Shown here one piece after another: positions 14,097-43,518 of a stretch of 44,022 nucleotides of DNA. A model generated the notes under the pieces. It was not told where the DNA came from. It made no database searches and saw only the letters and a program-made list of their open reading frames with translations. Positions within the stretch are counted from its first letter, which is position 1. Every line of letters starts with the position of its first letter. A program made the position numbers and the translations under genes. The stretch is from a virus: positions 1-44,022 of IMG/VR virus record IMGVR_UViG_3300031812_000006; one strand, given 5' to 3'.

Positions 14097-14271
14097 GTCG
14101 TCTCCTGCGCAGATCTGCGACGCTCGGCAGATCTTCACTGGTATAAGGCCTGGCAGCCTGTTGGACTGTCAGGAAAGGCGTGGGCTCTGCCCACATCAGA
14201 AAGTGATGTCGGCAAAGCCCAAGGCGGTAGGCCGGCATGGGGCAAGCTTTTTCGCGGCATGTCTCAGTCAT
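14071..14271 (-). CDS. Small Cys/His protein, possible zinc finger
   Basis: 66 residues. The N-terminal part CREKACPMPAYRLGLCRHH holds three Cys and two His residues at zinc-finger-like spacing, and the C-terminus is charged (RRRRHGDRDQEE). Small proteins with this C-x4-C-x8-C-x2-H pattern are frequent in phage early operons. They may bind DNA or act as adaptors. Its end overlaps the exonuclease start by 26 bases, and its ATG overlaps the stop of beta-helix protein 1 by 8 bases. Confidence 0.55.
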   Translation of the reverse strand: MTETCREKACPMPAYRLGLCRHHFLMWAEPTPFLTVQQAARPYTSEDLPSVADLRRRRHGDRDQEE

Positions 14272-15805
14272 CGTTCCAGTGCGCCTCGCCGTCCGGATCT
14301 GCGCCGTAACATTTCCACGGCGGCTTTACACTTAGATCCGGGTTAAGGACGTCGGCCAGATTGACTTGCTTTGACCCAGGGACACCACCGGACGCGGAGA
14401 GGTTGCTGTCGAAGGCAGCTTTCGCACAGAACTTGTCGATCGGCGCCTGGCCAGCCGGCAATCCCCGACCAAACACCACTCCCTCGACGATGTTCTTCAT
14501 GAATCTGAGGTTCTCGATTCGGTACCGAGCTGTGAAACCATGGTCTCCCGGAGTCGTCTCGGGAGGGCCGTCGAGCACGATCACGTGTTTGCATCCAACG
14601 ACGGTATTGTTCAAAATGAAGATGTCTTTCGCGCCCGTAAGGATCTGGAATCCAAATCCCTTACCCATCGCCTGGTTGACGCGGAAGATGTTGTTGCTGA
14701 AGTGGATGTTCTTCACCGCACCGCTGAATCCACCGAGAATACTGCACCCGGCGCCGACGTTGTCGACCACGTTGTCACTAACCATGATCTCTTTAACGGC
14801 GCCCGGCCATTCTGTGCGGAGCGTAAACACGAAGGCCTCGCCGTTCTGTTGGCCGGCCCACGAGTTCGAAAGGCGGTTCCCAGAAATGAGAATGTTCTCT
14901 CCAGAATTGATCTCGATCAGGTTCTTGACTGAGATGCCGGCCTTGCGCCACGCGAGGTCTTTGGTGATGACGTTGTTCACGATCAGGATGTTCCGCGGGT
15001 TATTCGGTACAAGCGACGGAGATCCTCCGAAAATGATGACCTCGCCAGCCGCCTCGAGGTAGTTTTCGCGGATAACAAAGGGCCCCGTGGCGTTCCATGC
15101 GGCGATAGCCTGAGCCTCGACGTCAGAGAAGAATCCGATGATTCGGCAGCGCTGAACGATTGCGGAACCACAGTTGAGCGCTATACCGCGCCTAGCGCGG
15201 AACGTCCCGACGATCAGCAGGCGGTCGAAATGCAGGCGCGAAGGCAGCTTCACTGCGTCGGCGATTTGCCCGAATCCGCACATGATGGCATTCGCAGTAG
15301 CCGACGACGGCATGATCCGCAGTCCGATCAGCGAGTATCCCGATGCAAGCTCAGGGAACGCAAAAACGAACGGACCCTGAGAAGAGAATCGAGGAAGCTG
15401 TGCATTCACGTCCGGCATGCCGACCGGCGGCGCCTCGGCCCGCAGAACAATGGGTTCCGCTTGGCTAGGCTGCGGAGGGAAGGTGAACTGCCCGGTGACG
15501 GAGACGTCGTTGTCAAAGACGACCTCATCGCCGGGTTTTAAACCGTCGATGATCTTCTGAATCGCCTGGGCGTCGAACGACTTAGACACCCGATAGAGCT
15601 TCCCCCCGAACGGAGGCACAGGCGGCGGAGGAGTGCCGGGAGGATGCAGTGGCGCGGGCGGCGGCTCAGGAGGCGGAGGTCCGGGCGGCGGAGGTTGCGG
15701 CGGCGGCTCGGGGGGCGGCTGTGCAACCACCGAAATCCTCAGTGGAATCTCGACCGTGCCCGATGGGAGCAGGTCGACATCAAGGGCATCAATGTGAATG
15801 CGCAT
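14264..15805 (-). CDS. Right-handed parallel beta-helix protein (paralogue 1), probable tail spike or fibre
   Basis: 513 residues from the chosen start. Residues 1-28 form a small beta part. A proline-rich hinge follows (PPPEPPPQPPPPGPPPPEPP), then about 420 residues of beta-helix coils with stacked Asn (ENYLEAAGEVIIFGG, NILIVNNVITKD, NILISGNRLSNSW, IFILNNTVVG). It shares many blocks with the 3575-5092 protein, which lacks the proline hinge. It comes straight after the tail-tip genes and has its own promoter at 15815-15843 with almost no leader. The ATG at 15805 is therefore preferred over one at 15838 that lies inside the -35 box. A receptor-binding role is inferred from fold and position. 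No catalytic residues are recognised. Confidence 0.75.
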   Translation of the reverse strand: MRIHIDALDVDLLPSGTVEIPLRISVVAQPPPEPPPQPPPPGPPPPEPPPAPLHPPGTPPPPVPPFGGKLYRVSKSFDAQAIQKIIDGLKPGDEVVFDNDVSVTGQFTFPPQPSQAEPIVLRAEAPPVGMPDVNAQLPRFSSQGPFVFAFPELASGYSLIGLRIMPSSATANAIMCGFGQIADAVKLPSRLHFDRLLIVGTFRARRGIALNCGSAIVQRCRIIGFFSDVEAQAIAAWNATGPFVIRENYLEAAGEVIIFGGSPSLVPNNPRNILIVNNVITKDLAWRKAGISVKNLIEINSGENILISGNRLSNSWAGQQNGEAFVFTLRTEWPGAVKEIMVSDNVVDNVGAGCSILGGFSGAVKNIHFSNNIFRVNQAMGKGFGFQILTGAKDIFILNNTVVGCKHVIVLDGPPETTPGDHGFTARYRIENLRFMKNIVEGVVFGRGLPAGQAPIDKFCAKAAFDSNLSASGGVPGSKQVNLADVLNPDLSVKPPWKCYGADPDGEAHWNDD

Positions 15806-15814
15806 ATATTCTAG

Positions 15815-15843
15815 AGCATACAGGTAATCGCCTGGCATGTCAA
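15815..15843 (-). promoter_or_regulatory. Sigma-70 promoter giving a leaderless message for beta-helix protein 1
   Basis: On the minus strand there is consensus TTGACA (15843-15838), a 17-base spacer and TATGCT (15820-15815). A start point about 7 bases on would fall 2-4 bases before the ATG at 15805, leaving no room for a ribosome site. The gap between 15844 and 15947 holds no gene. It includes a short GAAGGC/GCCTTC hairpin beside the stop of the 89-residue gene. Confidence 0.6.
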
Positions 15844-25616: not shown

Positions 25617-25969
25617 TCCTTTACGGCGACCACCCTCACCTCACGAAATGGCGGCTCGTCCACAGTCACTAACCTCACGTGGTAGTGCCCTGTTTCGCCG
25701 TCGAACTCCAACCTGTCCCCCGCTCGCACGTCAGTGCCGGCCGGTGCGACAATGTCGACCACGGCCAAGCCGAGTTCCTGCCCGGCCGCGGCCCGGGGCA
25801 CGCCAAGGGCCGGCTTGCGCTGAACGTAAGCCCTTTGCACAACTGGCCACGTAACCGCTGGCTCCCCAGAGGCGTTCTGGGCACCCTCCGTGCGCCTCAG
25901 AATGGCGCATCTGAGAGGGGCTGGAAGGTACCGGTCTTTAACGAACGCCTTAGATCCTGGACTGCTCAT
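25613..25969 (-). CDS. Head-tail joining (head closure) protein
   Basis: 118 residues from the ATG at 25969, which overlaps the upstream stop as ATGA. It contains LPAPLRCAILRRTEGAQNASGEP and GDRLEFDGETGHYHVRLVTVDEPP, the latter a beta-barrel segment like that of head closure proteins (phage head-tail adaptor family). Gene order (connector, closure, gp10, terminator) supports this. A longer frame to 26053 would run deep into the connector gene. Confidence 0.7.
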   Translation of the reverse strand: MSSPGSKAFVKDRYLPAPLRCAILRRTEGAQNASGEPAVTWPVVQRAYVQRKPALGVPRAAAGQELGLAVVDIVAPAGTDVRAGDRLEFDGETGHYHVRLVTVDEPPFREVRVVAVKE

Positions 25970-26565
25970 CTGTGGAGTCTCCCTGGTGTGAGGAGCGCCT
26001 CTGCGGCCGCAGGAATCTCGGTATTCGATTGCCCACGGGTGTAGTACAGCCACGCAGCAATCATCGTGATCGCCACCTTGACCCGCGCACCGGCATCTCC
26101 CCAGAATGCATCATTGCCGGAATACCCAGAGGTAAACCTTACAAGAATCGCGCCGCGCGGATATAGACTCGACGACGGCCACGTTCCGTTGACTGGCGGG
26201 CGGACGACCGGCGGCTCCAGGTTCGAGAAGACGATGTAGTCGGTGCCCTCAGCGAGGACGGTCTCGCTACCCTGCTCGTTGAGGTATGATACCTTGTCCA
26301 CCGAGACGAGTGGCGCGCGAAGCTCAATTTCGCTTGGCCATGAATCGAGCCGCAAATCGTACTGCTTCTGAACGAGATCGCGGTTAAGGTAGACCTCAGC
26401 CAGTTCCCTAGCCGCAGAGATGTACCCTTTGAGCAGTGAGTCGCGCTCGGAATCGGACGGGCTGAGCGCCGGCAGACCCAGAGCATGCTCAACCTCCGCG
26501 AGCGTGACCGGCTCTGAGAAGCTCTGCACCGGTGATGTTGCCGTCAGTTTAAGAGTCGCTGCCAT
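25966..26565 (-). CDS. Head-tail connector (gp6/adaptor family)
   Basis: 199 residues. The sequence SFSEPVTLAEVEHALGLP, then LLKGYISAARELAEVYLNRDLVQKQYDL and a C-terminal helix region (VKVAITMIAAWLYYTRG) is typical of phage gp6-like connectors that form a ring below the portal. Unusually, it is separated from the capsid gene by three glycosyltransferase genes. Its start overlaps the end of the last glycosyltransferase by 17 bases, so its translation may be tied to them. Confidence 0.8.
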   Translation of the reverse strand: MAATLKLTATSPVQSFSEPVTLAEVEHALGLPALSPSDSERDSLLKGYISAARELAEVYLNRDLVQKQYDLRLDSWPSEIELRAPLVSVDKVSYLNEQGSETVLAEGTDYIVFSNLEPPVVRPPVNGTWPSSSLYPRGAILVRFTSGYSGNDAFWGDAGARVKVAITMIAAWLYYTRGQSNTEIPAAAEALLTPGRLHR

Positions 26566-27355
26566 GCGGTCGGCCCCTCAATTTGAGGATATCACCTGTT
26601 GCAGGAGCTGGACGGAAATCTCGCAAGGGCACCTTCTTGAGCGGACCGGCCCATCGAAAACGCGAGGTCGGCGGAAACAAATCGCCAATGACCATGTGGC
26701 GGTACCGATCCTCGAAGTCATTGAGCGGGTCTATCGTGTTGTACCAGTGGAATTTTCGGATTCTGTCGTCTCGATGCATATAACCGTAGTGCTTGACGCG
26801 GACAGGGATGCGCTGAAAGTGGCGCGTAAAAGCATCGGGAACCGATGAGCAGTGGAAGTTGGCGCCGTTCCCGTACTTAGTGCGGCGGAACGTTTCCACA
26901 CCGCCTGACGCGCCGATCGGCCACGCAGACTGGCGATAGAACGAGCCATATATGCCGTCGATTCTCACCATCTCAGGAGAATCCCAGAGGTAAAGGATTG
27001 ACGGCGCAAGGGCTACAGGTCTACCCTCCTCCGACACTCGAGACATGCACTCGAGCATCTCCCAGTGGTCCATCAGTACCTCGTCGCCATCCAACATGAT
27101 CGCCCAGTCGTTGCCCGCAAAAGGGCCGTATCGTTTCCACGCCTGTTCTACGAGGAAGTCCTTATCTCTGGCTTCGTCGATGCCATCGAAGGGCGACGTA
27201 ATCACGTGGGCGCCGGCCCGCAGGGCCAGATCGACGGTGTTGTCCTCGCTGTGATCATCAAGGACAAGAACCGCGTCCGCTAGCCGGCGCAATTCAGAGA
27301 CCGCCTCCGAGATCCATCGCGCCTCGTTCTTTACCCTCATTAAGCCAACAATCAT
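26549..27355 (-). CDS. Glycosyltransferase, GT-A fold (third of three in the head module)
   Basis: 268 residues. MIVGLMRVKNEARWISEAV is the classic start of family-2-like glycosyltransferases, followed by VLVLDDHSEDNTVDLAL and the metal-binding DxD in AIMLDGDEVLMDHWE. A His-rich part (VKHYGYMHRDDRIRKFHWY) near residue 205 resembles the acceptor-side region of these enzymes. It transfers a sugar from a nucleotide sugar. The acceptor may be a virion protein, because the gene lies between the capsid and connector genes, but a host surface target is also possible. Confidence 0.8.
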   Translation of the reverse strand: MIVGLMRVKNEARWISEAVSELRRLADAVLVLDDHSEDNTVDLALRAGAHVITSPFDGIDEARDKDFLVEQAWKRYGPFAGNDWAIMLDGDEVLMDHWEMLECMSRVSEEGRPVALAPSILYLWDSPEMVRIDGIYGSFYRQSAWPIGASGGVETFRRTKYGNGANFHCSSVPDAFTRHFQRIPVRVKHYGYMHRDDRIRKFHWYNTIDPLNDFEDRYRHMVIGDLFPPTSRFRWAGPLKKVPLRDFRPAPATGDILKLRGRPHGSDS

Positions 27356-27370
27356 TTGACGGCCTCCGGG

Positions 27371-28030
27371 TCAGTATCGTCCCCAATTGTCATGCCCCCA
27401 CTTGTCCTTAAATCGTAGGAGGTTTTCCCTGAAGTCGCCGGCACCTCGCCCTCTGAACTCGCTCCTCAGCATCGAATGGTTGACCTTCACGCGGTCGTAC
27501 ACCCAGAGCTCGACCCCGAGCTGCCTGGCCCTGAGGCAGTAGTCATCATCATCGCAACCGTATCCGACAAACCTCTCGTCCATCTCTCCGACTAGGTTCC
27601 AGACGCGGCGCGGGATGTAAACACATACGAAACAGAGCATCCGCGGCTCACTCCGAACACCGACGCCTCTGAATCGCTGGTTCGGGTTGCCGACGAAGTC
27701 AATCGCTGGCGAGATGATCGCGTTTCGACCCGTCTCGAATGACAATCGTGAGATCGATGAAAGACCGTAGGGTGTCTCGAGGATTGCGTCGTCGTTCATC
27801 AGAACGATGTCGTTACCCTCAGGGGCTGCCCGGACCCCTACGTTGATGTTCCGAGAAAAAACAAACGGCTTAATCCCATCAACGTAGCGACACCCAAGTT
27901 GTGGGCGATCTTCAATTCCGTCGTCCACGACGATGATGTCGATGCCACCCTCGTATTCTCTGAGGCGCCCAATAGACACCTCGATGTTTGGCCTCGACCT
28001 TGAGGGAATGATCACTGAGAATTCTGGCAT
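27371..28030 (-). CDS. Glycosyltransferase family 2-like protein (second of three)
   Basis: 219 residues. The start MPEFSVIIPSRSRPNIEVSI leads to DIIVVDDGI and VLMNDDAIL, where NDD serves as the DxD-type metal site. MDERFVGYGCDDDDYCLRARQLG near residue 165 is the conserved ED-type catalytic block of rhamnosyl- or galactosyl-type GT2 enzymes. The full domain is present and short, without a membrane segment. The start overlaps the previous gene by 19 bases. It is likely cytoplasmic and acts with the two flanking transferases. Confidence 0.8.
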   Translation of the reverse strand: MPEFSVIIPSRSRPNIEVSIGRLREYEGGIDIIVVDDGIEDRPQLGCRYVDGIKPFVFSRNINVGVRAAPEGNDIVLMNDDAILETPYGLSSISRLSFETGRNAIISPAIDFVGNPNQRFRGVGVRSEPRMLCFVCVYIPRRVWNLVGEMDERFVGYGCDDDDYCLRARQLGVELWVYDRVKVNHSMLRSEFRGRGAGDFRENLLRFKDKWGHDNWGRY

Positions 28031-28833
28031 AGCAGTGTATATGCCTCAGGCAGGTCCGAAAAGGATGCCTTAATCCATGCGCTTCCAGAGATCTTCCTCG
28101 GCGAGACGTTCCCCGGATGGATGGACGCTACCATGTGCTCCGTCCCATCCACCGCTCGGAACCGCCCCTTTGCCGCCGCCTCGTGGACGAAGTGGTTGTC
28201 CTCCCCGACATGATAAGGTCGAAACCTGTGCCGGCCCCACCATTCCTTGCGGTAGATGAGAGAAGCACCGACAACGTAGTTCTGCTGGCTATACCTGTAT
28301 ACCTCGCGGGACCCGATCCTGTGGAAAAGGACCGTGCCGTAACCTGCAACGTCTCTGTCTCCGAGCGCTTCGACACGGTGGGAGATGCTGTAAGGTCCAT
28401 ACCAGTCGTCGTCGTCCCAGTGCAGAATAACCTCTCCGAGCGCAGCTTCGCAGGCGATGTTGCGTTTTTCGCCTACCGTCCCGCCTCGCTTGATCGTCCT
28501 CACCCATGCGGGAATGTCTTGTGGGAGGTCTGATGGTTGATCGTATACGACGATCAACTCAGCCTCACCAGAAAACGCGTGTTTCGACACCTCGAAGAGA
28601 TAAATTGCCCTCCGAAGGAAGTCTGGCCTGGCCCGAGTCGGGCAAATCGCTGACACTGTGGGATAAGGGCGCTGCTCAGGTGCGATCTGGGGCACCTGTC
28701 GATCCTGATCCTCTACGTGGTCGGCGAGACCACGCCGAACGAGCAATGCAGCCCTCTGGCGCGGGATGTCCACGATGCTGCCCTCAGCGTACACGCGGTC
28801 CAGGTACATCTGCCGCCGCAATCTGACCCGCAT
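28012..28833 (-). CDS. Glycosyltransferase with an extra N-terminal domain (first of three)
   Basis: 273 residues. Residues 1-45 (MRVRLRRQMYLDRVYAEGSI, then ALLVRRGLADHVED) look like the small phage-type domain with G-x-V-x-(V/I)P and a LVxRGLA ending, known from short head-associated proteins. The rest is a GT-A domain: VSAICPTRARPDFLRRAIYL, TVGEKRNIACEAA, ILHWDDDDWYGPYSI with the metal-binding DDDD, and GEDNHFVHEAAAKGRFRAV as the catalytic block. The fusion to a phage-type domain suggests that the transferase acts on, or travels with, the virion. A possible weak promoter (TTGTGG, 16 bases, GATAAT) precedes its ATG after the capsid hairpin. Confidence 0.75.
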   Translation of the reverse strand: MRVRLRRQMYLDRVYAEGSIVDIPRQRAALLVRRGLADHVEDQDRQVPQIAPEQRPYPTVSAICPTRARPDFLRRAIYLFEVSKHAFSGEAELIVVYDQPSDLPQDIPAWVRTIKRGGTVGEKRNIACEAALGEVILHWDDDDWYGPYSISHRVEALGDRDVAGYGTVLFHRIGSREVYRYSQQNYVVGASLIYRKEWWGRHRFRPYHVGEDNHFVHEAAAKGRFRAVDGTEHMVASIHPGNVSPRKISGSAWIKASFSDLPEAYTLLCQNSQ

Positions 28834-28936: not shown

Positions 28937-30088
28937 TTAGGCCGGCGAGGTAGTCAGCGATCCAGTGATGTAAGCGCCCGGTCGGAACACCACGAGGGCG
29001 AGCCGCTCCTCGGCGCGAATCGCGACCATGTTTTTCGTGAAAAAGTCGCTGTGTTCGGTCGAGATCTCGACCGAGAGCCCCGTCCGTTGACGGATGACAG
29101 CGCTGGTAGGAGCTGACGACCCAACCAGGAATGTCCCTTGGGTGATTCCGGTCGTCACGAACGGTCGCAGCCCAAAGAACGTGACATCGAACGGGGTAAA
29201 CGGATTCCCGAACAGGTATACGCCCGTCGAATCCTTACTCAGGCGGATGTCCCAGAAATCCTTCGGGTGCAGCACCACAAAGTCCGGCTCCACCTCGTTC
29301 GCGCTCTGGATCTGCTGAACGGCCCGGCCCAGGATGTCGATCTTCTCCCATCCGTGCGACGCCGAGAGCAGACCGGTATTGAACGGGGTCGCCTGGGTGA
29401 TCAAGCCGTTCAAGTTCTCGCCCGTGCCGCTCCCAGACAGGATCTGATTTTCCTCCTCGAGCAGGACCGCATAGGTAAGCGACTCTCGGATAAACGACTC
29501 GAGGCCCTCGAAGTCTTCCAAGACCTGGCGCGTGGCGGGAATCCATGTCGCAATCGTTCGGACAGTCTCCGTGTCGGTGGTGAACGTCAGGGCATTCTCG
29601 TACTTGGCGCTCGCCTCGACTTGCGGCGAAGCCTTCTGGATGTCTGAGTTCACCTTTACGAAATCGATGGCGTTGAACTGCGTCGGGATGACAGTCAACA
29701 GGTCGCGGATGAAAAGCCTGCGCCGTGCAGCCGGCACAATACCAGGCGTCCGCTCGAACAGTAGGACGCCTGAGCTTGCGCTCCCGACCGCGCTCGAGGT
29801 GATCGTGGTGCGCTGCTCGATGAGGGTCTCGATCCCGGGCAATTGGATTACCGCAGATCCGCGGCGGTCACGGAAGAGCTTCTGCATACCCTCGTGCTCC
29901 TGCAGCATCTGCCGCAATCTATTCGCCTGAGGCTGACTGGGGCGAGCCTTTTCTACTTCGGCAGCATCCAGCCGAGCCTGGAGCGCTTGCACTTGGGCGG
30001 CGGTATCGGAAGTGACCTTACCGAGACGCTCCATTTCGTCCTTGGCCTTGTTGATGAAGGCCTCGAGCTGTTTCTTCAGTTCGTCCAT
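28937..30088 (-). CDS. HK97-type major capsid protein
   Basis: 383 residues. The N-terminal 80 residues form a coiled-coil delta domain (MDELKKQLEAFINKAKDEM), expected to act as scaffold and be cut by the protease encoded just upstream. The shell domain follows: IETLIEQRTTITSS, then FVKVNSDIQKASPQVE, TWIPATRQVLEDFEGLESFI, and near the end VRAEERLALVVFRPGAYI-like text (IRAEERLALVVFRPGA), which is the HK97 capsid hallmark. Its start overlaps the protease stop by 13 bases. Confidence 0.93.
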   Translation of the reverse strand: MDELKKQLEAFINKAKDEMERLGKVTSDTAAQVQALQARLDAAEVEKARPSQPQANRLRQMLQEHEGMQKLFRDRRGSAVIQLPGIETLIEQRTTITSSAVGSASSGVLLFERTPGIVPAARRRLFIRDLLTVIPTQFNAIDFVKVNSDIQKASPQVEASAKYENALTFTTDTETVRTIATWIPATRQVLEDFEGLESFIRESLTYAVLLEEENQILSGSGTGENLNGLITQATPFNTGLLSASHGWEKIDILGRAVQQIQSANEVEPDFVVLHPKDFWDIRLSKDSTGVYLFGNPFTPFDVTFFGLRPFVTTGITQGTFLVGSSAPTSAVIRQRTGLSVEISTEHSDFFTKNMVAIRAEERLALVVFRPGAYITGSLTTSPA

Positions 30089-31008
30089 CTCTTCAAAATC
30101 TCCATGATTTCGGCGAGAGTGCTGTCAAGCGGCTCTCGCTTGTCTGCCTTGCGATCAATGTCGGCTCCGGGCTGCTCCGGAGTGACTTCCTTGGCCTCTG
30201 TGATCTGCGCCTGTTCCAGCGCAGGGAAGGTTACGAGGCTCACCTCCCATAACTTGATCTCCGACAATCGCCTGATGACTGTGTCACCTGGACCAGTGTC
30301 ATAGGTGAACTTCATCGGCTGAAACCCGATGGAGAGACCCTTGAGAACGCCCAGTCTGGCCTTGCGGAGGGCCTTCTGCGCCGTTGGATCCTCTAGATCG
30401 AGTGTGATCCGCGCAATCAGTCGCTTGCCTGTGTCCTCGAGTTTCGCTACCCCGATAGGCTCGCGAGGGTCGTGTTGCCACAGGACGGGGATCTCCGGAT
30501 TTTCGGCGATCGTCTTCTTGAAGGCGCCCTTCTCGATCACGTCGCCGAAGGAGTCCATAGATCCATAGACGGATGCCACTCCCACCAGGTTCGCCCCACC
30601 CTCGATTTCCAGAGCTACGGGAAACGCCTTGGTCTCGAATAACTTGTCGCCTGACTTGAGCGGCGGCGGGTCCAGGTCGGCGTCCTCGTAGTGCACAGCC
30701 AAGTGTGCATAGACCGCCCTGCGGTCGTCTTCCGGGATGTCGACGCCGCCACGGGCACCGTTCAGAGCGGCGATGGCAGAGGCAACCGCCTTGATGTTGG
30801 CCGCGCCCACACTTCCGTCTTCCGAAACGTTGTGATGCGGCAGCTTGTAAGAAGACATCGCGTCAGGGTCTCCGTTCTCGTCGACCCAGGCATGCATTGC
30901 CCTTAGTTTCGAAGCCCCTGGCGAATCCCCTAGCCGGCGCAGGTTGGCGCGAGCGTCCCAGGACCCTTCCTTGTCGATCGGGGTGTGGTGAATCTTGATT
31001 GCCGCCAT
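30076..31008 (-). CDS. HK97-family prohead protease with an N-terminal extension
   Basis: 310 residues. The protease domain runs from about residue 125 to 265: LVGVASVYGSMDSFGDVIEKGAF, the His in PVLWQHDPREPIG, the Ser in GVLKGLSIGFQPM, and LWEVSLVTFPA. These are the conserved motifs of the family S78 protease. The first 110 residues (AAIKIHHTPIDKEGSWDA, then DMSSYKLPHHNV-type text, and RAVYAHLAVHYED) form an extra domain seen in front of protease domains in some phages, of unknown use. The enzyme trims the capsid delta domain. The gene lies between portal and capsid genes with gaps of a few bases. Confidence 0.88.
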   Translation of the reverse strand: MAAIKIHHTPIDKEGSWDARANLRRLGDSPGASKLRAMHAWVDENGDPDAMSSYKLPHHNVSEDGSVGAANIKAVASAIAALNGARGGVDIPEDDRRAVYAHLAVHYEDADLDPPPLKSGDKLFETKAFPVALEIEGGANLVGVASVYGSMDSFGDVIEKGAFKKTIAENPEIPVLWQHDPREPIGVAKLEDTGKRLIARITLDLEDPTAQKALRKARLGVLKGLSIGFQPMKFTYDTGPGDTVIRRLSEIKLWEVSLVTFPALEQAQITEAKEVTPEQPGADIDRKADKREPLDSTLAEIMEILKRWTN

Positions 31009-31012
31009 CGCC

Positions 31013-32230
31013 TTAGATAGGCATCAGGTTTGCCTGGACCCTGTGGCCATCCCCTCCAGGAATCGGGTTGAGATCCTCGAGGTCTCGGACCTCGTTAATC
31101 GAGTATACACCATTCTGCAAGCCAGACGAGTAACCCTTGAAGCGCGACTCGAAATCGCCGCGCAACAGACCGCCGACGTTGTGCTTTGCGAAGAATCGCC
31201 GCTTCTCGATGTCCGACAAGAGTTGTCGGTTGATTGCCTTCTCCCACCTTACGATCCACGCCATCAGCGTGTGTTGAACGAACTCGATCGCGAGATGCTC
31301 GATGTTAGAGAACGTCGCGCGCGAGAGGTCCCCTACGAGGTGAGGCGACACCCTGAACCAGCGGCAGATCTCCGGCACCGAGAACTGCCTGGAAGATAGA
31401 AACTGCGCATCCTCCAGAGACATACCGATCTCCTTGTATTCGATGTCGCCCTCGAGGACGATCGCCCTGTGCGGATTCGTGGAATCAGCGTAAGCCGCCT
31501 CCCACTTCTCCCGGAATTGCTGGTACTCCTGGTCGTTCTTGAACCTCGTGCCCTTCGTGAGCACGTAGGGCTTCCGCCCGCCCGAGGCGAAGAAGCGAGC
31601 TGCGTACTCCTCCTGGATCTGCGCGAGAGCAATTGTGTGTCTCGCCATCGAGACCACCGAGTATCCAATCACGCCGTCCATGCCGAGGCCGGCAAGGTGG
31701 AAGATCTCTCGCTGCGGATACACCGTCTCCTGCCCATTCTGGTCCCGGACGATGTACTGCAGGGCACCCGTGTCGTCTCTCTTGATCTGTACCTGAGTAG
31801 GCAACAGTGGCCAGATCGCAATCACTTCGCCCGTTCCACTTCGCCTTACGATCCGAGCAAAGGCATTGCCCCATAGCAGGCAGTGGGAAGTCAGGGTTTC
31901 TCGGAACTGGAAGTCACTCATCTCGGGATTCGGCTCATCGTGCAGAAGCCGCTGTAGCGGGTGCGATTGAGCGACGAACTTCCCTTTTGGCGTCTGCTCG
32001 ATGAGGTTGAGCGGCAGAGACGCGAGCGTCTCAGAGATTACCCTGACGCAAGCCCATACGGTGGAATTGTTCAGGGCGGTCGCCTCGGTTACGATGCGGC
32101 CTGTGTACGTCTGCTGCCCACCGAGCGCTGCGATGAGGCGCGGGTATTTCCGATAGAACAGGTATTCCGTTATGGTTGAGAATGCTGCCGTCAGCGGATC
32201 GACCAGCGCCTTACGCAGGAACCCAGGCAT
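31013..32230 (-). CDS. HK97-family portal protein
   Basis: 405 residues. It shows the family text: ATALNNSTVWACVRVISETLAS, then RLLHDEPNPEMSDFQFRETL, LLWGNAFARIVR, EEYAARFFASGG, and a C-terminal FSRATFSNIEHLAIEFVQ-like segment (LSRATFSNIEHLAIEF). The protein forms the dodecameric ring through which DNA enters the head. It lies between the large terminase and the protease, in standard order. Length and motifs are normal. Confidence 0.93.
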   Translation of the reverse strand: MPGFLRKALVDPLTAAFSTITEYLFYRKYPRLIAALGGQQTYTGRIVTEATALNNSTVWACVRVISETLASLPLNLIEQTPKGKFVAQSHPLQRLLHDEPNPEMSDFQFRETLTSHCLLWGNAFARIVRRSGTGEVIAIWPLLPTQVQIKRDDTGALQYIVRDQNGQETVYPQREIFHLAGLGMDGVIGYSVVSMARHTIALAQIQEEYAARFFASGGRKPYVLTKGTRFKNDQEYQQFREKWEAAYADSTNPHRAIVLEGDIEYKEIGMSLEDAQFLSSRQFSVPEICRWFRVSPHLVGDLSRATFSNIEHLAIEFVQHTLMAWIVRWEKAINRQLLSDIEKRRFFAKHNVGGLLRGDFESRFKGYSSGLQNGVYSINEVRDLEDLNPIPGGDGHRVQANLMPI

Positions 32231-33832: not shown

Positions 33833-34324
33833 CTATTGCACCATCACCGCCTCGTCGTCGTCGTCAGCGGCCAGGATGCTCATGATGTGTTCTGCTGGCG
33901 TGGTCTGCTCCGCTACCACCTTGGTGCGATAAGCAGGCGTCATCCCGAAGTCACGGATCACCTTGATGTAGCGCTCGAATGCTTCTTTTGCTAGGCGAAT
34001 CAGAGGGTTAAGCCGCCATCGCTCGCCCTCCTTGATCAGCGCCTTGTTGCGGCACATGGTGGTATACCTTACCCATGCCGCATAGTCGACGCAGGCCATC
34101 TCGAGCGCTTGCAGGTCCGCTTCGGTTAGGACGCGCATCCTGGCCAGTACCGTTGCGTGCGACATCCACGCCTCGCGTTCGTCGGGCGCGAACCATGCCG
34201 GGCACCGGCCGCGCGCCTGCGCGGGCGATAGCGGCGCTGGTTTCGGCTCACCATGAGGTAAGCGCCGCTTCCCGGGATTGCCCTCGGCGATCTTGATCGC
34301 CGTAGGTTTAGGCGTCCGCGACAA
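33833..34324 (-). CDS. terS: Terminase small subunit, P27 family
   Basis: 163 residues. MSRTPKPTAIKIAEGNPGKR is the hallmark start of P27-family small terminases, followed by CPAWFAPDEREAWMSHATVL and a helix with LTEADLQALEMACVDYA. The protein recognises the packaging site and recruits the large subunit. It overlaps the HNH gene by 17 bases and precedes terL by 2. The combination HNH, P27 TerS and TerL is typical of cos-type phages, so a cos site may lie in the gap to the right. Confidence 0.92.
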   Translation of the reverse strand: MSRTPKPTAIKIAEGNPGKRRLPHGEPKPAPLSPAQARGRCPAWFAPDEREAWMSHATVLARMRVLTEADLQALEMACVDYAAWVRYTTMCRNKALIKEGERWRLNPLIRLAKEAFERYIKVIRDFGMTPAYRTKVVAEQTTPAEHIMSILAADDDDEAVMVQ

Positions 34325-34652
34325 TGCCAGCCTCCATCATTGTCTTGCGTGAGTGACACGACTTACACAGCGCCTGGAGATTCGCCTCATCCCAAAACAG
34401 GTCTGGGTCGCCTCGGTGCGGAATGATGTGGTCGACCTCCGACGCAGCGACCAGCCGCGAGCCGTGACGCCCGAACGGATCCGCACAGAGCGGGTGCCGC
34501 GCCAGAAAGTCCGCACGCGTGCGGCGCCACCGCGATCCGTATCCACGCCGGCTGGCACTCGGGCGCTCGTCGGCGCGGTGGATACTGCATCGACCATTAG
34601 CCGATAATCGCCAGCATCCGGGGATGGTGCACGGTCGCAACGGTCGGTGCAT
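34308..34652 (-). CDS. HNH endonuclease of the packaging module
   Basis: 114 residues. Zinc-type cysteines (CTIPGCW, and LCADPFGRHG) frame the core VDHIIPHRGDPDLFWDEANL followed by QALCKSCHSRKTMME. The HNH His and Asn plus CxxCH are intact. Such nucleases sit beside terminase genes and are needed for specific cutting at cos in several phages. The ATG at 34652 overlaps a perfect palindrome (34651-34665), which may control this first gene of the late operon. A second possible start at 34660 lies in another frame. Confidence 0.9.
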   Translation of the reverse strand: MHRPLRPCTIPGCWRLSANGRCSIHRADERPSASRRGYGSRWRRTRADFLARHPLCADPFGRHGSRLVAASEVDHIIPHRGDPDLFWDEANLQALCKSCHSRKTMMEAGIVADA

Positions 34653-37080: not shown

Positions 37081-37341
37081 ATGAGAGAAAGCAAATACAT
37101 TGAAAGCTACCTAGACTATACGGCCAAGAGGCCGATAACGCCAGGTACCTATCTGGCGTACATGCTGCGTGGAACGGCCAAGGATTACAGTAGCCGCTAT
37201 TTGAGAGCGCTTGAAAGAGCGCTTGAGCGGCGGAAGGAGGCGGGGACGGTTGTAACCGTCCGGTCGGTCGGCGGACGCATCGCCTACATCCGCCGAACCG
37301 ACATGCGCAGGGAGGCGAACCTGTGCCCGACCGCCGATTGA
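37081..37341 (+). CDS. Small basic protein upstream of the DUF1156 methylase, 86 residues
   Basis: The product MRESKYIESYLDYTAKRPIT continues as a helix-rich basic segment (KDYSSRYLRALERALERRKEA) and a beta part (TVVTVRSVGGRIAYIRR). I do not recognise it. A strong GGAGG site at the end of the 66-base repeat precedes the ATG. It overlaps the methylase start by 19 bases, so it is co-translated with the defence-type pair and may be an accessory or regulatory subunit of it. Confidence 0.65.
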   Translation: MRESKYIESYLDYTAKRPITPGTYLAYMLRGTAKDYSSRYLRALERALERRKEAGTVVTVRSVGGRIAYIRRTDMRREANLCPTAD

Positions 37342-40238
37342 TTGAACAGTGGCTGCCGATTGCCGAGATCAGCGAGGAGTGCATCCGTGAGCGGCGCTCG
37401 ATGACGGCGCTCCCGCCTACGTACTACCTCCACGTCTGGTTTGCGCGCCGGCCGCTGGTGGCCAGCCGGGCGGCGATTCTGGCCAGCCTCCTGCCGGCCG
37501 ATGCCGACCGCGCCAAGTTCCTATGGACGCTCGGGATTCACGGGGATCCGGTCAAGGCCAAGCTCAGAATTGCAAAGGCCACGGCGCAAGGCGAGCGCTT
37601 GGGCGCGGACGCTTACGGCTACCCGCGAGGTTTCACCTACACGCCCGGGCCCGAGGATCTGCGTGCACCCGAAGGCGCCGCACTGCTTGACCCGACCGCA
37701 GGGGGCGGAAGCATCCCTTTTGAGGCAGTCCGGCTCGGGTGCAACGCGATCGCCAACGACCTCAATCCAGTCGCCGGCCTGATCCTGAAAGCCACCGTGG
37801 AACTCCCGGCGGTCGTTGGGCCGCGCTTGCTCGAGCGGTACGGCGAGATTGCCGCGTGTTTCCGCAAGCGCCTCTGCGACCAACTCGCCGACCTCTATCC
37901 CGATGAGCCGGAAGACTTCATTTGCGACGGCTACCTCTGGGCGCGGACGGTCACCTGCCCGTATTGCGGCGGGCTGGTGCCGCTGTCGCCCAACTGGCGG
38001 CTGGACGGCGAGGGCACGGGTGTGCGTCTCGTCCCCGAAGGCCGCCGCATCCGCTTCGAGATCGTGCACACGGCGAGCGAGCAGTCGCCCGGCACGGTGA
38101 ACAACGGCACCGGCAAGTGCCCGTTCCCCGATTGCGGCCGCGAAATTCCAGCCGAGGACATCAAGCGCCAGGCGCAGGCCGGCCGCATGGGCCACCAGCT
38201 CTACTGCGTGGTCTACAAGAAGGAGGTCGCCGTCGGCAAGCTCAAGAACGGCAAGCCGAAAACCAAGGTGGTCCGCGGCTTCCGCGCGCCCCGGCCCGAA
38301 GACGACGTCGAAGCGCTCATCGCGCGGCGCCTGGCCGAAAAGATGCCGCTCTGGCAGGCCCGCAACATCGTGCCGGACGAGGAATTCCCCGAAAACACCA
38401 ACGACGACCGCCCCCGCCAGTACGGCGCGCCGTTGTGGCGGGACCTGTTCAATCCCCGCCAGCTCTACGGCCACTGCACCTCGGTCGAAGTCTTTCAGGA
38501 CATGGTCGAAGAGCTGAAGGCGCAAAACGGCGGCCGCTTGAGCGAACTCGACCGCGCCGCCATGGTCTACATCGCCCTGGCGATTGACAAAGTTGCGTAC
38601 TATAACGCCATCGGCTGCCACTGGGACCCAAGCACTGGGCGAGTGCGCAGCTACTTCGATCGCCACGACTTCAGCTTGAAGTGGAGCTACGCCGAGATGG
38701 CGCCCACCATCACCGGCCTCGGCTACGACTGGGCGCTCGAACAGACCGGCAAAGCCCTCGGCGAGTTGATCCAGCTCCTCGGCCACGCCCCGGATACAGG
38801 CGCGAACGGCCGCCTCTTTCCCGCAGCCGCCCGCCGCCAACCGGAGGTGAAGATCCTCTGCGAGTCGGCCGACGCGTTGTCGCTTCCCGACGCCTCCATC
38901 GACTGCATCGTCATGGACCCGCCCTACTATGACAACGTCATGTACGCCGAGCTCGCGGACTTTTTCTACGTCTGGCTGAAGCGCACCGCCGGGCTGCTTT
39001 ATCCTGAACTGTTCACCTCGTACCTGACCGACAAGGACCGCGAGGCGGTCGCCAACCCGGCCAAGTTCGCCGGGCAGAAGGGCGCCAAGCGCCTGGCGCA
39101 CCTCGACTACCAGCGGCGCATGGCGCGCATCTTCGCCGAGATGCGCCGGGTATTGAAACCCGGGGGCATCATGACCGTCATGTTCACGCACAAGGCCAAG
39201 GACGCCTGGGATGCGCTCGCCACCGGGTTGATCGAGGCGGGATTTGTCATCACGGCGAGCTGGCCCGTCCACACCGAAGCCGAAGGCAGCCTGCACATCC
39301 GCGACAAGTCGGCGGCCAAGTCGACGATCTTTCTTGCCTGCCGGCTGCGCCATGGCGCGGCCGAGCGCCGCGAGGAGGTCTTCTGGGAGGAGGTCGAGCC
39401 GGAAGTCCGCAACGTCGTGCGGCGGAAAGTGAGCGAGTTCCAAGAGGCCGGGATCGCGGGCATCGATCTGTATTTGGCCTGTTTCGGGCCGGCGCTCGAA
39501 GTCCTCTCGCGCCATTGGCCGCTTGTGCGCGGCACGGCGCGGCAGCAGCCCAAGGGGTACCAGGACGACCTCTTCGGCCCCTGGGACCCCTACCGGGTGA
39601 CGCCCGAGGATGCGCTCGATGCCGCCCGGCGCGAGGTGAAGCAGTGGCGCCTGGATCAGTTGGCCACGGTGAAGCGCCAGGCGCATCTTGATCCGCTGAC
39701 CGAATGGTACGTGCTGGCCTGGGACGCCTTCCGCGCGCCGAGGTTTCCCGCCGATGAAGCGCTGAAGCTGGCGCGCGTGGTGGGCCTGGATTTTGAGGAG
39801 GAAGTGCGGAATGTGGCCTGCGCCGTTTCGGGCGAGGACGTGACGCTGTGGGACAGCCAGACGCGCGTGATGAAAGGCAAGCTGGCGACCGGACTGCAAG
39901 CGCCGATGCTCGACCGGCTGCACGAAGCCGCCTACACCGTTCGATTCCAGAACACCGAGGCGGCGCGCAATCGGCTCGAGTCGCTGCGGCTGCTCGACGA
40001 TCCGACGCTGATGGCGGCGCTCGAGGCGCTGCTGAACGTGCTGCCGCCCGGCCCAAAGGGCGCCCCGCCGCGCGGCAAAAAGAAGCCCAATCCGCCGCTC
40101 GAGGGCGCGGCGAGCGACTTCGAGGCGCTCGAGAGGCTCCGGCGGCTGGCCTTCGCCGAAAAGGTGCCCGAGCCGAAGCGGCCCGAGCAGCTCGAGCTCG
40201 AGCTGGACCTTGAGGAGTTCGATGCCGCTGTTGACTGA
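37323..40238 (+). CDS. DUF1156 adenine-specific DNA methylase of an anti-phage-type locus
   Basis: 971 residues. The N-terminal DUF1156 region (RLIEQWLPIAEISEECIRER, then TYYLHVWFARRPLVASRAAI) is followed by AdoMet motif I LLDPTAGGGSIPFEA near residue 120, zinc-ribbon cysteines (CPYCGG near 212 and CPFPDCG), and catalytic motif IV MDPPYYDNVMYAEL near 530. RRVLKPGGIMTVMFTHKAKD follows. The C-terminal third is specific to the family. Such methylases mark host DNA in systems that carry SNF2 or PLD helicases. The GTG at 37323 has GGAGG 7 bases upstream. The C-terminal part is duplicated, about 95% identical, at the left edge of the window. Confidence 0.9.
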   Translation: MPDRRLIEQWLPIAEISEECIRERRSMTALPPTYYLHVWFARRPLVASRAAILASLLPADADRAKFLWTLGIHGDPVKAKLRIAKATAQGERLGADAYGYPRGFTYTPGPEDLRAPEGAALLDPTAGGGSIPFEAVRLGCNAIANDLNPVAGLILKATVELPAVVGPRLLERYGEIAACFRKRLCDQLADLYPDEPEDFICDGYLWARTVTCPYCGGLVPLSPNWRLDGEGTGVRLVPEGRRIRFEIVHTASEQSPGTVNNGTGKCPFPDCGREIPAEDIKRQAQAGRMGHQLYCVVYKKEVAVGKLKNGKPKTKVVRGFRAPRPEDDVEALIARRLAEKMPLWQARNIVPDEEFPENTNDDRPRQYGAPLWRDLFNPRQLYGHCTSVEVFQDMVEELKAQNGGRLSELDRAAMVYIALAIDKVAYYNAIGCHWDPSTGRVRSYFDRHDFSLKWSYAEMAPTITGLGYDWALEQTGKALGELIQLLGHAPDTGANGRLFPAAARRQPEVKILCESADALSLPDASIDCIVMDPPYYDNVMYAELADFFYVWLKRTAGLLYPELFTSYLTDKDREAVANPAKFAGQKGAKRLAHLDYQRRMARIFAEMRRVLKPGGIMTVMFTHKAKDAWDALATGLIEAGFVITASWPVHTEAEGSLHIRDKSAAKSTIFLACRLRHGAAERREEVFWEEVEPEVRNVVRRKVSEFQEAGIAGIDLYLACFGPALEVLSRHWPLVRGTARQQPKGYQDDLFGPWDPYRVTPEDALDAARREVKQWRLDQLATVKRQAHLDPLTEWYVLAWDAFRAPRFPADEALKLARVVGLDFEEEVRNVACAVSGEDVTLWDSQTRVMKGKLATGLQAPMLDRLHEAAYTVRFQNTEAARNRLESLRLLDDPTLMAALEALLNVLPPGPKGAPPRGKKKPNPPLEGAASDFEALERLRRLAFAEKVPEPKRPEQLELELDLEEFDAAVD

Positions 40239-43200
40239 GAGGAAGTGGAAGTTCCGCTACTCGCACGAGGACGGCGACCTCATCGAGCTGTTCTACAACC
40301 CGGCGCTCGCCTGCGCGGTGGAGTACTGCCGGACGACGGGCTACTTCTCGGCCGATGCGCTGGCGCTGGCCGCGCGCGGGCTGCGCGGGTTGATCGACAA
40401 CGAGGGGCGGATGCGGCTGGTGGTCGGCTGCACGCTGGCGCCGCCCGAGCAGGAGGCGATTCAGGAGGGCTACGACCTGCGCGCCGCCCTGGAGCGGCAG
40501 CTTGCCGCGGCCGACCTGACGCCGCCGGACGAGCATGCCCGACAGGGGCTGGAGCTGCTGGCGTGGATGGTGGCCAACGGGTATCTCGATGTGAAGGTGG
40601 CCGTACCCGTGGACGCCGAGGGCCGCCCGGCGCGCGTGGCCGGCATCTACCACGCCAAGTTCGGCATTCTGGTCGATGCCCAAGGCAACACGCTCGCCTT
40701 CTCCGGCAGCATCAACGAAACCGCCGGCGGCTGGAAGCACAACTGCGAGAGCTTTCACGTCCACTGCGCCTGGCTGAGCGAAACCGAGAAGGCGCACGCC
40801 GACGAAGAGCTTCTGGCGTTTGCCAAGCTGTGGGAGGATCGCTCGCCCGGCGCGCGGGTCTTCGACTTTCCCGAGGCGGCTCGCCGGAAGCTGCTCGAGT
40901 ATCTGCCGAGAGACGATCGCCCGGTGACGCCGCCCGAGACGCGGCACGCTGCCGAAGAGGCGGCGCCTTGCTTCCGGCTGACCGATAACGAGTTTCGCCG
41001 GTGCATCTGGACCTTTGTGAAAACGGCGCCGGAGCTGCCCAACGGGGTCCGCGTGGGTGAACTGACGAGCGCGGTGACGCCGTGGCCGCACCAGATCCGC
41101 ACCTATGCGCGGGTACTCCACGAGTGGCCTTGCCGGTTGTTGATCGCCGACGAAGTGGGCCTGGGCAAAACGATCACGGCCGGGCTGATTTTGCGGCAAG
41201 CGCTGCTTTCCGGCAAGGCCAAACGCGTGCTGATCCTGACGCCCAAGAGCGTGCAGATCCAGTGGCAGAACGAGCTGTACGAGAAGTTCAACCTGAACGT
41301 GCCCATCTACGACGGCGCGGTGCTGCGCCGGCGGGCGGCCTACGGCTGGACGGAGCCGCTCGAGCGCCCCGTCAGCCGGAACGAGTGGCAGAAGGAGCCC
41401 GTGGTGCTCGCCTCGAGCTTCCTCGTGCGCCGCAAGGATCGGGTCCGGGAACTGCTCGAGGCCGAGCCTTGGGATTTGGTGTTGCTCGATGAAGCGCACC
41501 ATGCACGGCGCCGCGGCGCGGGCACCGAACAGGAGAAGGGGCCGAACGCGCTGTTGAGCCTGATGCGGGAGTTGGCGCGGCGCTGCCAGAGCTTGTTGTT
41601 GCTGACGGCGACGCCCATGCAGGTGCACCCGGTCGAGCTGTGGGACTTGATGGACCTGCTTGGGCTGCCGCCGATGTGGGCGGCTGAGCCGCACGCCTTT
41701 CTCAAGTATTTTTCCTGGGCGAGCGGCAACCCGTCGCCGGAGACGCTCGATCTCATGACGGCATGGTTCCGCGATTGCGAGGCGTATTTCGGAGCCCTGA
41801 CGGACGCCGAGCTCGCGGCGTTGACGCCGAATCTGTCGCCGATCAAGCGGACGAAGGTGATCCGGGCGCTGCGCGATGCGGCCCAGGCGCCGCGGCGGAT
41901 GCTGGATGGCGAGGCGCGCAGGGCGCTCGTTGAGGTGCTGAAGGCGTGCTCGCCGCTGCGCTGGCGGATGGTGCGGCACACCCGGGAGCTGCTGCGCTCC
42001 TACCGGCGCGCCGGTAAGCTCGATCTGCCTCTGGCCGAGCGCGAGGTGAAAGATATTCCGGTGGAGATGACTCCGGCCGAGAGCGAGCTGTACGCGCAGG
42101 TGGAGGACTACATCTCGGAGACCTACTCGAAAGCGGCCTCCGACAAGCGCACGGCCATCGGCTTTGTGATGACGGTCTACCGGCGGCGCCTGGCCTCCAG
42201 CTTCGAGGCTTTAAAACGAACTCTCAATGCGCGCCTGGAAAAGCTCGGCTTGAGCGAGGAAGACGTCTCGCTGGACGAAACCGCCGATGAGGCAATGGCG
42301 CCGGAAGAGGCGGCCGAGCTGGCCGCATCGGCGGCGGAGCTGGAGGAGCGCGAGCGGATCCTCGAGCTGCTTCGGGCGATCGCCAAGCTGAACACGGACA
42401 CCAAGGCGCGGCGGCTGCGCGCCGAGTTGGTGAGCGTGTTCACGCAGGATTCCGAATCGGCAATCGTCTTCACGCAGTTTACCGATACGATGGAGTATCT
42501 GCGCGAATTCCTGGCGCGCGAGCTGCCGGATGTGCCGGTGGCCAGTTACTCGGGCTCAGGCGGCGCCTGGCGCGACGCGAGCGGGCGATGGATTGCGTGC
42601 AGCAAAGAGGAGATCAAACGCCGGCTGAAGACCGGCCGGGTGCGTCTGCTGGTTTGCTCGGACGCCGCCGGGGAAGGCCTGAACTTGCAGGCGGCGGGCG
42701 TGCTGGCCAACTACGATCTGCCCTGGAACCCGATGAGGATTGAGCAGCGCATCGGACGCATTGATCGGCTGGGACAGGAGCGGCCGCGGGTCAAGATTCT
42801 GAACTTCGCTTACAAGGATACGGTCGAGGCGGATGTCTACTTCGCCGTCGGCGAACGGATTCAGCTTTTCCAGGGCATCGTCGGCCGCCTTCAGCCGATT
42901 CTCTCGAAGTTGCCCAAGCGGTTTGAGGAGGTCACGCTGGCCGGCCGCGAAGCGCGCGAGGCGGCCCGGCAGCGGTTCTTGGCCCAGATCGAACACGAGG
43001 TTTCTTCGGCTGCCGAGGCGCCGTTGGATCTGGACGCTGTGGCGCGGGAGGACTTGGCCGTCCCGGCGCTGCCGGAACCGCCCTACGACCTGGCGCGGCT
43101 CGACCACGCCATGGGCCGCAACGCAAGCCGACCCGTCGATTTGGAGTGGCGACCGCTGGATGTGAGGACCTATGCTGCACGCCTGCCCGGCATGCCGGAA

Positions 43201-43518
43201 CCGATCCGAGTGACAACCTCGGCGGAAGTGTTCGAAGAATCCGGCGACAGCCATCAGTTCTTCTCGCCCGGCGGGCAACTGTTCGAGACGATTCGGCGCG
43301 CCGCAGACGGACCACTTTCCAAAGAGCCGCAACCGGGCGTCTGCTGGCTGCTGCGCGACCGGACCGGCAAACCGGCGACGTTCGTCGTCAACACCACTGC
43401 CGGCTTCGTCCGCGCCGACACGCTCGATGTGTTGATGCTCTCTTTAGAGCGTGCCGGCGCGCCCACCCCGTTTCCGGCTGCGGACTGGCCGGGGTATGAG
43501 GCCGAGTTGGTGGCCTGA
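40222..43518 (+). CDS. PLD-domain SNF2 helicase of an anti-phage-type locus
   Basis: 1098 residues from the ATG at 40222, with GAGGAG just upstream and a 17-base overlap with the methylase. Residues 1-190 form a phospholipase D-like nuclease domain with HAKFGILVD near 143 (the HxKx4D motif) and SGSINETAGGW. An SNF2/RapA-type motor follows: Walker A IADEVGLGKTITAG near 310, VLLDEAHHARR near 420, LLLTATPMQ, then the second lobe with IVFTQFTDTMEYL, VCSDAAGEGLNLQAAGVL and MRIEQRIGRIDRLGQ. It probably translocates along foreign DNA and cuts it. The upstream methylase would mark self DNA. Proteins with this domain order occur in defence islands. Confidence 0.9.
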   Translation: MPLLTERKWKFRYSHEDGDLIELFYNPALACAVEYCRTTGYFSADALALAARGLRGLIDNEGRMRLVVGCTLAPPEQEAIQEGYDLRAALERQLAAADLTPPDEHARQGLELLAWMVANGYLDVKVAVPVDAEGRPARVAGIYHAKFGILVDAQGNTLAFSGSINETAGGWKHNCESFHVHCAWLSETEKAHADEELLAFAKLWEDRSPGARVFDFPEAARRKLLEYLPRDDRPVTPPETRHAAEEAAPCFRLTDNEFRRCIWTFVKTAPELPNGVRVGELTSAVTPWPHQIRTYARVLHEWPCRLLIADEVGLGKTITAGLILRQALLSGKAKRVLILTPKSVQIQWQNELYEKFNLNVPIYDGAVLRRRAAYGWTEPLERPVSRNEWQKEPVVLASSFLVRRKDRVRELLEAEPWDLVLLDEAHHARRRGAGTEQEKGPNALLSLMRELARRCQSLLLLTATPMQVHPVELWDLMDLLGLPPMWAAEPHAFLKYFSWASGNPSPETLDLMTAWFRDCEAYFGALTDAELAALTPNLSPIKRTKVIRALRDAAQAPRRMLDGEARRALVEVLKACSPLRWRMVRHTRELLRSYRRAGKLDLPLAEREVKDIPVEMTPAESELYAQVEDYISETYSKAASDKRTAIGFVMTVYRRRLASSFEALKRTLNARLEKLGLSEEDVSLDETADEAMAPEEAAELAASAAELEERERILELLRAIAKLNTDTKARRLRAELVSVFTQDSESAIVFTQFTDTMEYLREFLARELPDVPVASYSGSGGAWRDASGRWIACSKEEIKRRLKTGRVRLLVCSDAAGEGLNLQAAGVLANYDLPWNPMRIEQRIGRIDRLGQERPRVKILNFAYKDTVEADVYFAVGERIQLFQGIVGRLQPILSKLPKRFEEVTLAGREAREAARQRFLAQIEHEVSSAAEAPLDLDAVAREDLAVPALPEPPYDLARLDHAMGRNASRPVDLEWRPLDVRTYAARLPGMPEPIRVTTSAEVFEESGDSHQFFSPGGQLFETIRRAADGPLSKEPQPGVCWLLRDRTGKPATFVVNTTAGFVRADTLDVLMLSLERAGAPTPFPAADWPGYEAELVA

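Follow-up and report, generated by a model that had tools for sequence, protein, structure and literature searches.

The viral DNA analysed here, the 44,022-nucleotide stretch that forms positions 1 to 44,022 of IMG/VR record IMGVR_UViG_3300031812_000006 (the window), encodes three glycosyltransferases, GT1, GT2 and GT3, within its head gene module, between the genes for the major capsid protein (MCP) and the head-tail connector. The first of these enzymes begins with a short domain that resembles the C-terminal domain of the phage lambda head protein gpFI. In the window this FI-like domain and the enzyme are encoded as one in-frame gene; in most relatives a stand-alone FI-like gene overlaps the GT1 gene in the +1 frame at a conserved slip motif. 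Both the fusion and the frameshift are well supported by sequence comparison. With some reserve, we lean towards the view that undescribed, widespread environmental phages, at least one of them in Acidobacteriota, make a prohead-docking glycosyltransferase by a +1 shift at TTT_CGT in a gpFI-like gene, that a small share of the chaperones would thereby bear the enzyme, which would glycosylate the capsid during assembly, and that the window lineage has hard-wired the fusion. Mounting the enzyme on a chaperone domain that docks on the capsid would offer a concrete, testable way for a phage to direct glycosylation to its own capsid. The chaperone-enzyme fusion would also be an apparently new use of programmed +1 frameshifting, with the slip motif of influenza PA-X occurring in bacterial viruses, and it suggests that virion glycosylation reaches well beyond actinobacteriophages.

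The glycosyltransferase cassette and the FI-like domain of GT1

The head genes lie on the minus strand in the order small terminase (TerS), large terminase (TerL), portal, prohead protease, HK97-type MCP, GT1, GT2, GT3, gp6-type connector and more head-tail genes. The cassette is bordered by the MCP gene (28937..30088, 383 aa; PF05065, E 1.8e-37; PHROG_10) and, on its 3' side, by the connector gene (25966..26565; PF05135; PHROG_442, E 4.8e-18). GT1 (28012..28833, 273 aa), GT2 (27371..28030, 219 aa) and GT3 (26549..27355, 268 aa) are non-identical, intact open reading frames (ORFs), and the original prediction of three distinct GT-A enzymes between the capsid and connector genes therefore holds. 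The overlaps of 17–19 nt between GT1 and GT2 and between GT3 and the connector gene indicate that the cassette is one tight operon.

GT1 and GT3 pass the Pfam cut-offs (PF00535, 29.4 versus 23.3 bits, and PF13704, 31.9 versus 27.5 bits, respectively); GT2 has weak Pfam matches and itself falls under the cut-off (PF00535, 14.3 bits), and its relative in locus L022 lies above it (25.5 bits). Each enzyme carries a conserved acidic motif. In GT1 this is the DXD-type motif HWDDDDW (residues 138–144; 28402..28422), of which D140–D142 are invariant in 21 relatives. N79, D80 and D81 form the NDD motif of GT2 (residues 79–81) and are invariant in 20 relatives at 36–48% identity, and the DGDE motif of GT3 (residues 89–92) is likewise invariant. 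The AlphaFold2 model of GT1 (pLDDT 88.9) matches GT-A enzymes with Z up to 19.8 (2.7 Å over 179 residues), and GT1 is similar to polymer-type glycosyltransferases, the heparosan and chondroitin synthases. The solved proteins nearest to GT3 by sequence profile include GmaR and SunS, which are distant from it (E about 1e-6 to 1e-9) and which we take to be protein or peptide glycosyltransferases; their acceptors are flagellin and a bacteriocin, and neither is a phage-head enzyme. Given these relatives, GT3 could equally be the first enzyme to act on protein. No transmembrane-like stretch is present in GT1, GT2 or GT3.

Residues 1–44 of GT1 (28702..28833) form a separate strand-strand-helix-strand domain. 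Weak PHROG matches of this domain led to stand-alone phrog_2616 proteins encoded between the MCP and the connector in relatives. A profile of the domain finds a stand-alone ORF of ~110 aa after the MCP gene in soil relatives and, weakly, in phages that lack the cassette, a 42–80 aa protein whose gene immediately follows that of the MCP. In 13 relatives, as in the window, the domain and GT1 are joined in frame. Other arrangements also occur: in L022 (3254-4138) it is fused to GT2, and in L055 (2903-4360) an FI-like domain (weak match), GT1 and GT2 apparently share one ORF.

Lambda gpFI is the sole PDB sequence-profile match of this domain (E 0.23). Direct comparison with lambda FI by hhalign gave P 1.2e-4, a probability of 56% and a score of 27, versus at most 15.4 for 60 shuffles, with lambda residues 105–131 alone aligning; lambda E and FII gave no profile match to the domain. 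The domain superposes on the gpFI C-terminal domain (PDB 2lsm) at 1.2 Å over 40 residues with Z 4.5, a score tied with unrelated small folds. Such folds (GINS, ribosomal L9; Z 4–6) fill the ranking, so that the match leans on the profile and on gene position as much as on structure. The position is the same in both phages, since in lambda the FI gene immediately follows E, which encodes the MCP, and precedes FII. The N-terminal part of gpFI is missing from the window GT1, which starts with the C-terminal-like domain, and for this reason we classify the domain as gpFI-C-like and not as gpFI. Lambda gpFI is a DNA-packaging chaperone with a different N-terminal part, whereas the GT1 domain is fused to a glycosyltransferase; in the literature, gpFI is described as binding the MCP lattice of the prohead. 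A relationship between the GT1 domain and gpFI-C is quite probable on these grounds, and the domain is a putative prohead-docking module. The phage-head-type N-terminal domain originally proposed for GT1 is thus borne out by homologues encoded right after the MCP and by the profile match to gpFI-C, alongside a structure match that is less telling.

Relatives were gathered by scanning viral contigs with each glycosyltransferase and with the MCP, followed by gene mapping of the matches. The order MCP, GT1, (GT2, GT3, others), connector is kept in dozens of environmental viral contigs, and a Candidatus Sulfopaludibacter metagenome-assembled genome (Acidobacteriota) carries TerL-portal-protease-MCP-GT1-GT2-GT3-connector. 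This recurrence, for which the original prediction had suggested a search, argues that the gene order is not due to chance. In contigs with both borders, the end of the MCP gene and the end of the connector gene are mostly 3 to 7.7 kb apart, and the additional cassette genes of relatives include FkbM and other methyltransferases, DegT aminotransferases, TOD1/MUCI70-type glycosyltransferases and genes without an assignment. Among the 80 nearest relatives by MCP alone, the cassette stands behind most MCPs close to that of the window and behind none of the more distant ones.

Cultured phages offer few counterparts. GT1, GT2 and GT3 of the window have no tblastn match at E 1e-5 in 50,697 cultured-phage records, and queries from relatives returned two weak partial matches only, MT836318 and GX15bay. 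The latter (MK557849, mangrove soil) has several annotated glycosyltransferases together with a methyltransferase shortly before its terminase gene (7-19 kb), and its annotation also lists an endoglucanase and a mannanase. Of four loci that GT3 matched in a genome scan, L065 alone lies in a head module. The matches in 396 sampled Acidobacteriota genomes are mostly to cellular tandem glycosyltransferases. In L228, L230-L235 and L237-L242 of this sample the GT1-like sequence lies mostly within longer open frames, up to 917 aa, and several of these genomes have two tandem matches; these sequences are possible cellular relatives of GT1.

A conserved +1 overlap and slip motif in relatives

In soil relatives, GT1 mostly lacks an ATG; its ORF opens past an in-frame stop, and the FI-like ORF runs across the GT1 start. 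In an enlarged set, the FI-like and GT1 ORFs overlap at 58 distinct loci, and in every one of them GT1 lies in the +1 frame, never in the -1 frame. The GT1 proteins of this set are diverse, with a median identity of 61% and a minimum of 39%. The sequence TTTCGT occurs in the FI-like frame at the junction in 51 of the 58 loci. As background, TTT accounts for 22% of Phe codons and CGT for 9% of Arg codons in these phages, and TTT is followed by CGT at 8 of 2632 Phe codons elsewhere. In the two classes that align without gaps (25 and 17 sequences), variation among codon positions peaks at the third base of the FI-like frame upstream of the site and at the third base of the GT1 frame downstream of it, and the TTT columns are invariant. 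No ATG, GTG or TTG precedes the GT1 catalytic core in 42/58 loci.

A +1 slip at this site would link the FI-like domain and a linker to the first strand of the glycosyltransferase fold (...PF|VTCLC...), the same join that the window reaches in frame (...RPYPTVSAIC...). TTTC is found at the junction in none of the 14 in-frame fusions, window included. In four of the 58 overlapping loci TTTC is missing from the precise position: L004 possesses an ATG of its own, in L029 TTTC stands one codon upstream, and L026 and L183 deviate. In the GT1 tree, most of one large group has the frameshift form, and the in-frame form is concentrated in a different group; support is poor for the deep forks and for the placement of the window. 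From this pattern, a programmed +1 frameshift very probably makes the FI-GT1 fusion in most relatives. This route adds to the original prediction, which missed the mode used by most relatives, and since GT1 has no ordinary start codon in most of them, gene callers may mis-annotate it.

A close parallel is the PA-X protein of influenza A, made by a +1 frameshift at UCC_UUU_CGU that was shown by mass spectrometry; the favoured mechanism there is that tRNA-Phe leaves UUU and pairs anew with UUC (PMC3498833). The UUU_CGU site and the +1 direction are common to 51/58 relatives. Unlike PA-X, the relatives are bacterial viruses in which the preceding codon is mostly CCN and not UCC, the predicted product is a chaperone-enzyme fusion, and the slip site is absent from the window itself. 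Frameshifts in phage virion genes are known from Listeria PSA (+1), A2 and T3/T7, according to the searched text of a review (PMC5009743); there too a programmed shift gives a short and a long product, and in-frame and frameshift versions coexist among phages. The cases in that text extend structural proteins, however, and none involves a glycosyltransferase. Neither a capsid-chaperone-glycosyltransferase fusion nor a frameshift making one was found in a partial literature collection.

Proposed capsid glycosylation and its alternatives

It appears reasonably likely that the three genes form a capsid-glycosylation cassette of the head module. GT1 would dock through its N-terminal gpFI-C-like domain on the MCP lattice of the assembling prohead, and there the cassette would place a glycan on the capsid, with one sugar added by GT1 and the remaining transfers left to the soluble GT2 and GT3. 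In most relatives, the slip site, usually CCN TTT CGT, would lie within the stand-alone FI-like gene that follows the MCP gene, and some ribosomes would shift +1 at it, tRNA-Phe moving from UUU to UUC, and read on into GT1; plain FI-like proteins and fewer FI-GT1 enzymes would result. The original prediction, which placed a stepwise glycan on the capsid or neck and named immune or nuclease evasion or host binding as possible benefits, is partly supported. The capsid gains indirect support from the conserved head-module cassette, the lack of a transmembrane-like stretch, the sugar-tailoring genes of relatives and the gpFI-like domain, and the neck is less favoured. The domain is of a lattice-docking kind, and taken together these points favour the capsid over both the neck and host surface glycans.

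Comparable head modules are known in mycobacteriophages. Corndog (cluster O) encodes an O-methyltransferase, two glycosyltransferases and a putative GlcNAc transferase between its portal and protease genes, and capsid modification has been proposed for it (PMC4351075). As cited in PMC11652166, O-glycosylated mycobacteriophage capsids and tails are reported to weaken antibody binding (Freeman 2023), and PMC12619734, citing the same study, states that capsid and tail-tube subunits carry the glycans at their C-termini. These systems thus resemble the present one in having several glycosyltransferases and a methyltransferase within a head module, with virion glycosylation reported for them. They differ in that the Corndog genes sit between portal and protease and those of the window after the MCP, in that the window enzymes have no homologue among the cultured-phage records searched, and in that the texts consulted describe no FI-like fusion or frameshift.

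The C-terminus of the window MCP is Ser/Thr-rich (TGSLTTSPA; 28940..28966) and is a weak candidate acceptor. Such an SP-type tail is present in 37/41 MCPs accompanied by glycosyltransferases versus 2/58 without them, in a comparison that is not phylogenetically independent. The tail is kept as a hint only, as two usable independent pairs show nothing and HK97-type MCPs without glycosyltransferases end alike. Two apparent exceptions were overturned: L082, taken as a joint loss of tail and enzymes, has a large GT92-type ORF after the connector, and L077, taken as tailless, has the motif with an extension. In L078 (1062-1745) a prohead-protease-like gene follows the MCP gene in place of the cassette, despite an SP-type tail. 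The MCP of L060 (6317-7480), 50% identical to that of the window, ends in an SSPA tail, and no glycosyltransferase is seen on its 13.4 kb contig.

An unlikely alternative is that the sugar acceptor is not the MCP but a different head or neck protein, or else the FI-like protein, with the FI-like domain serving only to localise the enzyme to the assembly site. GT3 adjoins the connector gene, some islands (L024, L029) hold extra possible surface proteins, and the FI-like protein is longer in relatives (~110 aa) than in phages without glycosyltransferases (42–80 aa); on the other side stand the known binding of gpFI to the MCP lattice and the known mycobacteriophage targets, which are the capsid and the tail tube. 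That the enzymes alter host surface glycans, in serotype conversion or superinfection exclusion, is rather improbable. Surface polysaccharides are common substrates of GT2-family enzymes, GT1 is similar to the synthases of heparosan and chondroitin, and the DegT and methyltransferase genes of relatives are typical of O-antigen loci. Serotype-conversion (gtr) cassettes, however, combine a membrane-bound glycosyltransferase with a flippase outside the head genes; the present enzymes have no transmembrane-like stretch, no flippase is found in the cassette, the late head-operon position is kept in all relatives, and GT1 is fused to a head-chaperone domain. The lack of a transmembrane-like stretch, together with the place in the head operon, argues against serotype conversion.

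We regard glycosylation of phage DNA bases as extremely improbable: phage glycosyltransferases that modify DNA exist and are named in PMC12619734, but a scan of window proteins revealed no enzyme that hydroxylates or hydroxymethylates bases, and capsid proteins are the targets suggested by the place in the head operon and by the FI-like fusion. Another explanation concerns the overlap itself, where GT1 of relatives could be a protein in its own right, with an internal start at GTG or at a non-standard codon, and TTTCGT could be conserved for some other reason. A Shine-Dalgarno-like sequence, GAGGTG(A), lies ~15 nt upstream of the slip site in most loci, and the first core codon of GT1 is GTG in 37/58. 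Yet this sequence is ~18 nt from the first core codon, a start there would cut into the first strand of the glycosyltransferase fold, and neither the invariant TTT nor the in-frame fusions would be explained. Internal initiation is rejected for the 19/58 loci that have no ATG, GTG or TTG even when the first core codon is counted, and for the set as a whole it seems very improbable.

Several points weigh against capsid glycosylation by a frameshifted, docking GT1. Both the glycan and the frameshifted protein are predictions from sequence. The structural match to gpFI does not stand out from those to many small alpha-beta folds (Z 4.5), and the two proteins share the C-terminal domain only. For the surroundings of the slip site, RNAalifold gave no conserved RNA structure of a stimulatory kind in 54 sequences, and the window itself has a single in-frame ORF with neither frameshift nor slip site. 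The Ser/Thr tail of the MCP is not an independent signal. Finally, the cassette of the window has no recognised sugar-nucleotide gene, so that the donors would be supplied by the host.

Other features of the window

The 5' part of the head operon contains the genes for the prohead protease (30076-31008; PF04586, E 2e-26) and the portal (31013-32230; PF04860, E 2.6e-109), both on the minus strand. Farther along, an HNH endonuclease gene (34308-34652, minus strand) adjoins the gene for the small terminase (33833-34324), an arrangement also seen in some other tailed phages. Between 34600 and 44022 the GC content climbs from ~59% to 64–68%, and a DUF1156 DNA methylase (37323-40238) and a PLD/SNF2-type helicase (40210-43518) match defence-system models; we read this region as host DNA or a defence island beside the phage. 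At the other end of the window, two plus-strand ORFs (1208-1642 and 1760-2572) match consecutive segments of a single type II methyltransferase model, PDLC03229, and are possibly an interrupted methyltransferase gene. Two minus-strand ORFs (3575-5092 and 14264-15838) have weak right-handed beta-helix matches and may encode tail-spike-like proteins.

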